Source: Planctomycetota bacterium
GTDB taxonomy: Bacteria; Planctomycetota; UBA1135; UBA2386
Direction of reading: 5' to 3'
DNA length: 64,000 nucleotides
Assembly (NCBI GenBank): GCA_028281765.1
Contig: JANQJF010000039.1
Location: forward strand, 1-64,000
A program made the position numbers and the translations under genes. This document shows, piece by piece, positions 14,121 to 42,622 of this stretch; positions within the stretch are counted from its first letter, which is position 1, and each line of letters starts with the position of its first letter. The notes below the pieces were generated by a model. The model was not told where the DNA came from, did not search any database, and saw only the letters and a list, made by a program, of their open reading frames with translations.

Positions 14121-14156
14121 GTCAGAGTGGCCTGAGTCAGAGTGCCTGAGTCAGAC
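14116..14156. repeat. Three tandem copies of a 14-15 bp unit spanning convergent stop codons
   Basis: Units of CCTGAGTCAGAGTGG (14116-14130), CCTGAGTCAGAGTG (14131-14144) and a partial CCTGAGTCAGAC (14145-14156). The unit contains the stop codon of the pseudouridine synthase (TGA, copy 1) and, read on the minus strand, the TGA stop of cyaY (copy 3). A local duplication has created the spacer between the two convergent genes. Confidence 0.9.
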
Positions 14157-14468
14157 TTCGATCGAGCGGCCGAGACGTTCGCTGAGGACCTCTCCGAGGA
14201 CCTTGCGAAGTTCTCCGCGGCCCTTGGTGTCCATCCAGGACCCGTCCTCGAGCGCGAAGTGCCACGCCGTGGCCCCCGACGCCAGCCAGATCTGATGGGC
14301 TGCCGTCTGGCGGTTCATGATGCATTTCGTGCCGTCCGCAAACTCGATCGACAGGACCCCCATCGCGAGATCCGGATCCAGCTCGTCGGGGTCCAATTCG
14401 GACAGAACCGCGAAGACCTCCTCCATGAAGGCGTCGGCGGTGCTCGTGAATTCGAGGTCGGTGGTCAT
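14151..14468 (-). CDS. cyaY: Frataxin-like iron donor protein CyaY
   Basis: 105 aa, the normal length for CyaY. The first helix carries the acidic ridge expected for iron binding (many Asp/Glu within the first 35 residues). The beta-sheet motifs are conserved: GVLSIEFADGTKCIMNRQTAAHQIWLAS, followed by WHFALEDGSWMDTKGRGEL. CyaY regulates Fe-S cluster assembly with IscS in the cytoplasm. No isc or suf genes are in the window. Its start faces a 300-bp gene-free region carrying a strong terminator on its own strand, so it probably has its own promoter between 14469 and 14522. Confidence 0.88.
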   Translation of the reverse strand: MTTDLEFTSTADAFMEEVFAVLSELDPDELDPDLAMGVLSIEFADGTKCIMNRQTAAHQIWLASGATAWHFALEDGSWMDTKGRGELRKVLGEVLSERLGRSIEV

Positions 14469-14522: not shown

Positions 14523-14564
14523 TTAAAAAAAGAGGGCCGGAGGTCGTCGAAACGACCCCCGGCC
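14523..14564 (-). terminator. Strong intrinsic terminator upstream of cyaY
   Basis: Read on the minus strand: stem GGCCGG-C-GGTCGT-type arms (12 paired positions with one A/C mismatch), a 4-nt loop, then CTC and seven T. On the plus strand the arms are 14535-14547 and 14552-14564, and the A-run is 14525-14531. It would end a transcript coming from the MoxR gene at 14778-15782 or from an ncRNA between them. Confidence 0.85.
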
Positions 14565-14569
14565 ACGGT

Positions 14570-14720
14570 GGCTCCGCCCCAGCCCTCTCACTGGTCAGTG
14601 TGGCCTTCCCTGCAGGACACACACTGATGGGGGCGGAGCCGCTCGTCCCATGCACTGTGGTAGACGTTCGAGAACGCGATTCTTTCCAAGCAGGATCGAT
14701 TTAATTCGCGTCGGGACGAG
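14570..14720 (-). ncRNA. Candidate structured RNA between moxR-like gene and cyaY
   Basis: This occupies the gene-free stretch 14469-14777. Two stacked inverted repeats precede the minus-strand terminator. Arms 14642-14649 and 14713-14720 (GGGACGAG and its complement) enclose about 63 nt with a smaller inner pair. Arms 14570-14580 and 14630-14640 (perfect 11 bp, GGCTCCGCCCC) enclose a second perfect 8-bp pair, 14595-14602 with 14620-14627. Together with the terminator this would give a compact transcript of about 200 nt. It does not show the GGAA/AGCAG signature of SRP RNA, and I cannot assign it to a family. The alternative is a long 3' UTR of the MoxR gene. Confidence 0.4.
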
Positions 14721-14777
14721 ACCGTGACATTCGGACCGTGTATTGCGGGCAATTCGCCTAGAAAACGAAATTTCTAG

Positions 14778-15782
14778 CTACCCGCTCGCGCGATCCGACG
14801 TAGCGATCCAGTTGGGGAGCAGCGCATCTACGGTGCGCCCGTCCGCTTCCGCGTCGAACGTCAACACGATGCGATGACGCAGCGCAGGCAGCAGCGACGC
14901 CTCGAGGTCTTCTCGCGAGACCGATGGTCTCCCGTCGCACAGCGCGCGCACCTTGGCCGACAACACGATCGCTTGCCCCGCACGCGGACTCGCGCCGTAG
15001 CGAACGTAGCGTGTGGTATCGGCGTCGGCGTTTTCGTTCGGCTGGGTCGCGTTCAATAGTTCGGCGACGAAACGAAGTAGGTGTCCTCCGCAGAGGACAC
15101 GGCGTGCGAGGGCCTGAAGTTCACAAACTTCTGCGGCGGACAGAACCGCACTCGGCATCTCTCGTTGTTCGGCTGTCGTCGCTCCGAGGATCTCGACCAT
15201 GTCGTCGACCGCCGGTGTGCCGACGACCAGCTTGAACAAGAAACGATCAAGCTGCGCTTCGGGCAGCGGATACGTGCCCTCGAGTTCGATCGGGTTCTGC
15301 GTCGCCACGACACAGAACGGCGGCGGCAATACGTGCGTCGTGTCGCCTAGGGTCACTCGGTGTTCCTGCATGGCCTCGAGCAACGCCGATTGCGTCTTCG
15401 GGGTCGTGCGGTTGATCTCGTCCGCGAGCAGTAGGTTCGTGAACACGGGGCCGCGCTCGAAGCGAAACTCGAGCCCGTCGCTCGTGTCGTCGATGATGCG
15501 AGTGCCCAAGACGTCCGCGGGCATCAGATCCGGGGTGAACTGGATCCTGCCGAATTCGACCCCGAGGCCGTGCGCGAGGGCCCGCACCAGCAGCGTCTTG
15601 CCGAGCCCGGGGAGGCCTTCGAGCAGCACGTGGCCGCCGGCGAACAACGCGACCAGGAGGTCGTCGATCAGGGCTTCCTGGCCGATGACGCAGCGTCCGA
15701 GTTCCTCATGCAGGGTTCGGACCCTGGAGACCAAGTGCTCGGCTCGGTCCTGAATCGCTCGGCTGTCTTCGGTCTGCGTCAT
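14778..15782 (-). CDS. MoxR-family AAA+ ATPase (second copy)
   Basis: 334 aa from the ATG at 15782 (MTQTEDSRAIQDRAE). It has Walker A GLPGLGKT, the substrate-loop motif RIQFTPDLMPADVLGTRI, and Walker B LLADEINRTTPKTQSALLEAMQEHRV. Sensor 1 lies in ATQNPIELEGTYPLPEAQLDRF, and the lid ends LLPALRHRIVLTFDAEA. It is clearly paralogous to the ATPase at 6948-7970 but stands alone, with no DUF58 or VWA neighbour. Its start is close to the divergent TPR lipoprotein gene (44 bp between starts). Confidence 0.94.
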   Translation of the reverse strand: MTQTEDSRAIQDRAEHLVSRVRTLHEELGRCVIGQEALIDDLLVALFAGGHVLLEGLPGLGKTLLVRALAHGLGVEFGRIQFTPDLMPADVLGTRIIDDTSDGLEFRFERGPVFTNLLLADEINRTTPKTQSALLEAMQEHRVTLGDTTHVLPPPFCVVATQNPIELEGTYPLPEAQLDRFLFKLVVGTPAVDDMVEILGATTAEQREMPSAVLSAAEVCELQALARRVLCGGHLLRFVAELLNATQPNENADADTTRYVRYGASPRAGQAIVLSAKVRALCDGRPSVSREDLEASLLPALRHRIVLTFDAEADGRTVDALLPNWIATSDRASG

Positions 15783-15825
15783 GCCAGCATTGTAGATGCC
15801 CGTGCCCGGAGACAAGATGCTCGGG

Positions 15826-16983
15826 ATGTCCTTCCGGCGCGAGATTGGGTTGCTGCTGACCGTCGCCATGGCGGCAGCTTGCGAGAGCGTGAGCCCGGAC
15901 CCGGCGGAGATGGCATCCGAACTCCCGGTCGAAGGGCGCGCCCTGACGGCCGACGAGGAGCGGCGCGTCGTCGAGTTCACGGAGTCGGCCCTCGCGGCGC
16001 TGGAGCGTGGCGATCATGTCACCGCGGGCCGCACGGCCGAGGCCACGCTCGAACTCGCGCCCCGCACGGCACGGGCGCTGGCCGTGCTGGCGATGTCGCG
16101 GCGAGCGCGCGCCGATGCGGAGGACCCGCCGATCCTGCGGTTGCTCAATCGCGCCGAGGGCGAACTGCGGCAGGCGTCCAAGATCGCGCCGGACGATGGC
16201 GTCGTCGCGCTGCTGCACGGCCGATTCCTCGAATCGATCGGGCACGTCTCCGCCGCGGTCGATCGCGCGGAGGGTGCGCTCGTTCGCCGACCCGACGACC
16301 CCGATCTGATGGAGCTCGCCGCGCGGTTGCGCTACGAACTCGGCGACGAACGCCTGGCTGTGGCCTGGTTCGAACGCCTGCTCCGGGTGCAACCGGACAA
16401 CGCCGATGCGCTCTACTGCGTGGGCACATGCAGCTTGTCGATCGCGGCGACGTCGCGCGACCAGGCCCGGGAGCTGGCGCTCGAGCGGGCGGTGTCGAGC
16501 TTCGCGGCCTACCGCGGGTTGCGACGGGATGATGCGGACGGGTGCCTCGGCGAGGCGCGTGCGCGGGCGGAGCTGATCCCGCGCGACGAAACCGCACGGG
16601 AGCCGGGAGCGATCGACGAGGTGCTCGAGCTGTTCGGGCACGCCGCGCGACTCGATCCGGCGTCACCGCGGGCCGACCACGATCGGGGCGTGTTCCTCGA
16701 GCGGATCGAACGCGAGGCGGAGGCGCGGGAAGCCTACGAGGCCGCGCTTCGTCGCCGTCCGGGCCACGTGTCGTCCTTGCTCAACCTGGCGGCGAATCAG
16801 GCCGCAGCAGGCCTGGATGAGGCCGCGCGAGCCAACTGTCGCCGTGCGCTGCTGCTCGAGCTGACGCGCGAGGAACGCCGGCGGATCGAGGACTACCTGG
16901 CCGAGCCGGAGGGAGATCCGGAAGCGGAAGAGGACTCCGAGACCATCGGGGAGCCCGGCCGCGACGGCGCTACACGCCGATGA
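15826..16983 (+). CDS. TPR-repeat lipoprotein
   Basis: 385 aa with the chosen ATG at 15826; an in-frame ATG at 15796 would add ten residues. The N-terminus has a hydrophobic stretch followed by AMAAACES, which fits a lipobox with Cys near residue 19. The rest is alpha-helical, with repeated tetratricopeptide motifs (for example DPDLMELAARLRYELGDERL and PDNADALYCVGTC). It is probably anchored in the outer or inner membrane and acts in protein-protein contacts; partners are unknown. It overlaps the 3' end of the convergent fabI gene by 14 bp. Confidence 0.8.
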   Translation: MSFRREIGLLLTVAMAAACESVSPDPAEMASELPVEGRALTADEERRVVEFTESALAALERGDHVTAGRTAEATLELAPRTARALAVLAMSRRARADAEDPPILRLLNRAEGELRQASKIAPDDGVVALLHGRFLESIGHVSAAVDRAEGALVRRPDDPDLMELAARLRYELGDERLAVAWFERLLRVQPDNADALYCVGTCSLSIAATSRDQARELALERAVSSFAAYRGLRRDDADGCLGEARARAELIPRDETAREPGAIDEVLELFGHAARLDPASPRADHDRGVFLERIEREAEAREAYEAALRRRPGHVSSLLNLAANQAAAGLDEAARANCRRALLLELTREERRRIEDYLAEPEGDPEAEEDSETIGEPGRDGATRR

Positions 16984-42284: not shown

Positions 42285-42549
42285 GGACTCGCAGTGCTCC
42301 ACCGCAAAGCGCGGGGGCGCACCGAGCGGGTTGGACCCTTTGCCGCGCCAACGGCGCGTGAGGGTCGCGCAAGGACTCGCAGTGCCCCAGCGCGAAGCGC
42401 GGGGGCACACCGAGTCCTGCAGGACCCACATTGCCGCGCCTATGGCGCGCGTTGCCCGGGCGCGTGGACTCGCAGTGCCCCGGCGCGAAGCGCAGGGGCA
42501 CACCGAGTCCTGCAGGCCCCACATTCCCGCGCCTACGGCGCGGGAATTT
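42285..42549. repeat. Three imperfect ~90-bp tandem units in the tRNA trailer region
   Basis: Units begin at 42285, 42373 and 42466, each with GGACTCGCAGTG. Each unit can fold into a long hairpin in which GGACTCG pairs with CGAGTCC and GTGCCCC with GGGGCAC around a CGCGAAGCGCG tip; unit 1 is the most decayed. Units 2 and 3 also carry, in inverted orientation, the last 17 nt of the adjacent tRNA (exact at 42411-42427, one mismatch at 42504-42520) plus about 12 nt of its 3' flank. The arms 42504-42533 and 42537-42566 form a 30-bp inverted repeat with two mismatches, and the second arm enters the tRNA gene. Confidence 0.85.
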
Positions 42550-42622
42550 GGGTCCTGCAGGACTCGAACCTGCAACCAACCGGGTATGAGCCGGCGGCTC
42601 TAACCAATTGAGCTAAGGACCC
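42549..42622 (-). tRNA. tRNA with CAT anticodon (elongator Met or Ile2)
   Basis: 74 nt. On the minus strand: acceptor stem GGGTCCT with AGGACCC, D-arm GCTC...GAGC, anticodon stem GCCGG/CCGGT with loop CTCATAC (anticodon CAT). A T-arm GCAGG-TTCGAGT-CCTGC and discriminator A at 42549 complete it. No CCA is encoded. The 5' TTAGCTCA and TTGGT variable region look like both Met and Ile2 (lysidine-modified CAT) tRNAs, so the amino acid is not certain. The initiator tRNA is unlikely because the anticodon stem lacks the three G-C pairs. Confidence 0.9.

Follow-up and report, generated by a model that had tools for sequence, protein, structure and literature searches.

A minus-strand intergenic region of the window (the whole stretch of 64,000 nucleotides that was analysed) probably encodes an independent, non-coding small RNA of about 129 nt that would act in trans, a reading that we base on the comparison of homologous loci. 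The evidence for the gene and for its structure is strong, and the RNA represents a new family of a known kind. The region is a 309-base gap that separates, on the minus strand, a moxR-like ATPase gene from the downstream cyaY gene, and the features of the locus are, in the direction of transcription, as follows.

14778 to 15980, minus strand: moxR-like AAA ATPase, the upstream gene, start codon uncertain (PF07726, E 4.8e-62).
14699 to 14706, minus strand: A/T-rich tract AATTAAAT, proposed UP-like element, at the site of the conserved A-tract of the homologues.
14682 to 14687, minus strand: proposed -35 element GGAAAG, ECF-sigma type, at the same offset in 30/30 homologues.
14660 to 14666, minus strand: proposed -10 element CGTCTAC, with CGTNNAC in 30/30 homologues.
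14525 to 14653, minus strand: small RNA gene, 129 nt, from the predicted start G14653 (placed from promoter spacing) through the last base of the T run.
14642 to 14653, minus strand: 5' tail GCAUGGGACGAG, nearly invariant, mostly unpaired, proposed seed.
14570 to 14640, minus strand: long hairpin P2, with perfect 11-bp arms at 14630-14640 and 14570-14580; 11 of 12 pairs changed on both sides.
14595 to 14627, minus strand: inner hairpin P3, with 8-bp arms at 14620-14627 and 14595-14602; 12 of 13 pairs changed on both sides.
14581 to 14594, minus strand: 3' bulge with the conserved motif GAGAGGGC.
14535 to 14564, minus strand: intrinsic terminator stem-loop, arms at 14552-14564 and 14535-14547; 9 of 14 pairs changed on both sides.
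14525 to 14531, minus strand: run of seven T after the terminator.
14151 to 14468, minus strand: cyaY (frataxin), the downstream gene (PF01491, E 1.4e-20).

The sequence-only reading had described in this gap an outer 8-bp hairpin, the 11-bp hairpin with its inner 8-bp hairpin and a seven-T terminator, all of which are present in the sequence. On folding, the stack was more stable than expected by chance whether 14523-14720 (z -4.2), 14523-14777 (z -4.3) or the predicted transcript 14525-14653 (z -4.8) was folded, with 0 of 200 shuffles folding equally well in each case. Most of these elements could be assigned to one small-RNA gene, the exception being the outer 8-bp hairpin (arms at 14642-14649 and 14713-14720), which falls outside it. 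This hairpin was discarded as a chance pairing of the conserved motif GGGACGAG with non-conserved sequence upstream of the promoter, its upstream arm CTCGTCC being present in 1 of 30 homologues. A three-way junction (CACGGU/ACCGUG) was likewise dropped, since both upstream arms, that of the outer hairpin included, precede the predicted transcript start. Directly 3' of the moxR stop codon, a 7-bp hairpin CTAGAAA/TTTCTAG at 14758-14777 may be the end mark of the moxR transcript.

The small RNA sequence is single-copy in its 8.8-Mb genome. Of 61 related genomes compared at the DNA level, 12 had a match, counting the own genome and one coding chance match; the match in genome G006 (L017) looked coding and was dropped. 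Searching a public genome collection with the conserved pattern yielded 38 loci, from which 23 full or near-full members were kept together with one truncated member (L035), the other 14 being set aside as coding or unrelated chance matches. Searched with a covariance model built from 19 relatives, the window's Planctomycetota family of 34 genomes yielded the RNA in 32, normally as a single copy; a diverged copy missed by the model in genome G011 adds a 33rd. In G006, moxR and cyaY adjoin without the RNA between them (L129, G006:C274:9900-12300); the cyaY gene of this genome is 73% identical to that of the window, and the RNA was likely lost there recently. Two further diverged copies, L089 (G022:C205) and L098 (G014:C36), carry long insertions, with an RNA match of about 190-220 nt.

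When the model search was extended to the whole order, the same 32 of 154 genomes and one weak match were recovered, and in a sample of the phylum 5 of 392 genomes matched, namely four of the window's family and one weak. The weak matches in G044 (E 3e-4), G421 (E 4e-4) and a second one in G033 (E 0.003) were judged to be chance, that of G044 lying on a different contig from its cyaY gene, and a second match in G032 was the opposite strand of the same locus. Thus no convincing copy was found outside the window's family among the 154 genomes of the order or the 392 of the phylum sample, and viral contigs gave no match. One contig labelled Candidatus Kuenenia stuttgartiensis (L053, CAMAUH010000036.1) carries moxR and an RNA of the window's family, and is probably misnamed or part of a contaminated bin. 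Rfam gave no match for the RNA locus at its own thresholds, none credible at relaxed thresholds and none in ten related loci; the sole Rfam match in the window at gathering thresholds is a minus-strand tRNA gene at 42549-42622.

The covarying elements are P2 with its inner hairpin P3, plus the terminator. Thirty sequences were aligned by fitting them to the covariance model, which biases the alignment towards the structure. In this alignment 95.3% of the cells are paired, and both partners have changed in 32 of the 39 base pairs, a number that none of 500 shuffles reached (shuffled mean 20.2); the covariation score was 0.500, as against 0.176 for shuffled alignments and 0.046 to 0.113 with slid partners. 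This set includes L089 and leaves out L034, which lies on the same contig as L089, as well as the G014 copy (L098) and the truncated L053. In a plain MAFFT alignment of 17 model sequences the covariation was weaker than in the fitted alignment of 30, with 17 pairs changed on both sides (shuffled mean 11.6, 0 of 500 as high). The sequence-only reading is supported in part: its proposal of an undescribed small RNA has good support, the RNA being conserved, covarying, terminated and absent from Rfam, whereas the length of about 200 nt that it gave is replaced by a predicted 129 nt. In most members the predicted length is about 127-154 nt.

The most conserved parts of the RNA are unpaired, namely the 5' end GCAUGGGACGAG, which is mostly unpaired in most of 30 folds and partly paired in several, and the bulge motif GAGAGGGC. 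An additional 5' hairpin with an A-rich loop (P1) looked convincing in a few genomes, but in a shuffle test of 31 sequences p averaged 0.44 and was below 0.05 in 5 of them, so that P1 was not taken as a general feature. We also considered a small protein starting at the conserved ATG of the 5' tail. The corresponding frames range from 8 to 232 amino acids in 29 members, and since the frame is not conserved the RNA is regarded as a non-coding transcript candidate with its own terminator, whose helix covaries.

Upstream of the RNA, the conservation profile begins with an A-rich tract and GGAAAG; after a stretch of low conservation comes CGTCTAC, which 6-7 variable bases separate from the invariant GCATGGG. 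This promoter-like layout sets the upstream block apart from the RNA itself. By pattern match, GGAAAG (or a close variant)-N15-CGTNNAC is found at a fixed offset in 30 of 30 homologues, with a conserved A-tract at -39 to -34 before the -10 motif that is degenerate in the window. Such an A-tract fits an UP element. The sigma-E factor of E. coli reads GGAACTT, according to parts of two published studies (PMC8103513, PMC3397946), and a section of the latter (PMC3397946) reports that several ECF factors use CGTC at positions -13 to -10. There is thus fair evidence that the layout is of the ECF sigma promoter type. Taking CGTC at -13 to -10, as given in that section, we placed the predicted +1 on G14653, the G of GCATGGGACGAG; across the homologues the spacer between the -10 element and the start is 6-7 nt. 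The sequence-only reading had expected a transcript starting within 14720-14780, upstream of this position. In L056, an 18-base unit with an A-tract (GCGCGCCAAAAAACTCAG) is tandemly repeated about 35-70 bases upstream of CGTCTAC, before the RNA promoter.

In the own genome the promoter motif has 5 matches with up to two mismatches, as compared with 3 for a reversed control, and across the family a looser pattern has 26 exact matches, 21 of which are the RNA gene itself. Nine other sites from the own genome and the family were inspected and lie mostly inside open frames, so that the motif appears nearly private to the RNA locus and the other matches look like chance. Neither a regulon nor a cognate sigma factor was found from the motif matches in the own genome and the family and, because the motif is nearly private to the locus, none can be named; this counts against an independent RNA.

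In 30 of 32 genomes cyaY follows the small RNA directly, on the same strand and no more than 700 nt away, and in the remaining two a contig break separates them. moxR lies upstream of the RNA in the examined loci except in two genomes of one genus (g14: G013 and G022), in which another gene takes this place. Frataxin genes sampled from other families of the order stand among different neighbours and lack an RNA of this kind. This steady adjacency means that a role in cis would also fit, with the RNA as a leader or attenuator of cyaY whose transcript, starting at the same promoter, reads through the terminator in response to iron, an iron-sulphur signal or another ligand. The domain order of structured domain, terminator and gene is that of such a leader, the RNA and cyaY persist together in the two genomes without moxR upstream, and the window has no recognisable separate promoter for cyaY. 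However, 13 of the 29 loci, as against a mean of 0.19 in shuffles, carry a CATCAT promoter beyond the terminator and just before cyaY, many of them with a TTG 16-18 bases upstream of it; in the other loci, that of the window included, this TTG/CATCAT promoter was not recognised. The gap between terminator and gene is, moreover, very variable, the core motif lying 175-410 nt from the cyaY start and the RNA about 680 nt from it in G014, and G006 keeps moxR and cyaY without the RNA, a genome that also counts against an independent RNA. Given the promoter recognised for cyaY itself in 13 of the 29 loci, an independent small RNA is considered the likelier reading, and a cyaY leader is a possible but rather unlikely one.

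We regard it as improbable that the RNA serves to bind a protein, either as a CsrA decoy or as a 6S-like binder of RNA polymerase, even though purine-rich motifs are unpaired in the 5' tail, in the GAGAGGGC bulge and, as UGGGAGA, in the terminator loop of many members, and the own genome is without a 6S RNA of the Rfam model (RF00013). Unpaired sites average 1.5 GGA and 0.3 ANGGA per RNA over 30 members, which is few for a CsrA decoy, and a CsrA/RsmA decoy was rejected on this count. 6S RNA has paired 5' and 3' ends, whereas the ends of the small RNA are not paired with each other, and RF00013 had no match at the RNA locus either. Finally, the structured 3' UTR that the sequence-only reading had offered as its alternative, or a processed 3' end of the moxR mRNA, agrees with the shared strand and with the distance of 63-241 nt from the moxR stop codon down to the core motif in loci that have moxR, but is very improbable given the conserved promoter-like block between moxR and the RNA, the lack of conservation from moxR to that block and the two genomes that have the RNA and cyaY without moxR upstream.

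If the locus indeed encodes an independent small RNA, RNA polymerase with an ECF sigma factor would read GGAAAG-N15-CGTCTAC and start at G14653, and the RNA would be released at the terminator. Its unpaired 5' end GCAUGGGACGAG, perhaps together with the GAGAGGGC bulge, might then bind target mRNAs by base pairing in the course of a stress response, in the mode of RybB, MicA and GsrN. A more specific version, which we put forward as speculation and consider rather unlikely, is that an ECF sigma factor with a seemingly single dedicated promoter drives an RNA whose 5' end GCAUGGGACGAG binds CUCGUCCCAUG at start codons in the mRNAs of exported proteins and lipoproteins, so that the synthesis of envelope proteins would be turned off under stress by a system with an origin separate from that of RybB and MicA.

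Across the 34 family genomes, 84 sites match the seed complement CTCGTCCCATG, 31 of them being the RNA gene and 53 lying elsewhere, as against 23 for its reversed pattern. Ten of these 53 sites start signal-peptide genes, whereas among all ATG of the fetched loci the share that does so is 2.2% (p 2e-7). In a control family without a credible RNA, for which 90 of 116 CTCGTCCCATG sites were fetched and one was too near an end to be scored, 10 of 89 sites start signal-peptide genes (p 0.22 between families), and with a second control, CCTTCGCCATG, this was the case for 1 of 28 scored sites (30 loci). The CTCGTCCCATG sites are not in orthologous genes. Because the family without the RNA shows the pattern too, it is not evidence for targets, and this failure in the control family counts against an independent RNA. 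The enrichment of CTCGTCCCATG at signal-peptide start codons in two families of the order (L198-L250, and 90 of L281-L371), with the RNA or without it, is an observation in its own right, and CTCGTCCCATG is perhaps a general start-codon context.

A literature search on the motif letters, planctomycete small RNAs and ECF-dependent RNAs found no description of this RNA. The small RNAs of Planctomycetota are little known, and in one of the searches none of the papers found was, by title, devoted to them. The RNA extends across the family, its promoter is readable and its 5' end is invariant, which makes both its sigma factor and its targets testable.

Among known systems, terminator-type riboswitches and attenuators likewise present conserved unpaired motifs in a covarying fold, followed by a terminator and a gene; they differ in that the gene downstream of the window RNA has its own promoter in 13 of 29 loci and no known ligand link. 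RybB and MicA have a single-stranded 5' seed, and the free, nearly invariant 5' end of the RNA behind an ECF-type promoter resembles them. According to sections of one review, RpoE reduces outer-membrane proteins and Lpp through RybB, MicA and MicL (PMC8103513). These sigma-E-dependent RNAs of E. coli are likewise intergenic and terminated and have an ECF-type promoter. They belong to another phylum and have no sequence relation to the RNA, which has no Rfam match. GsrN of Caulobacter, which depends on sigma-T/EcfG, is described in a portion of its report (PMC5869019) as an ECF stress-response RNA that acts by pairing through a loop exposed within its 5' part. In GsrN a C-rich loop pairs with a G-rich leader, whereas the exposed parts of the window RNA are G/A-rich and show no homology to it. 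If the RNA works like RybB or GsrN, the use of an ECF sigma factor to drive a small RNA that represses or activates would have arisen in another phylum as well.
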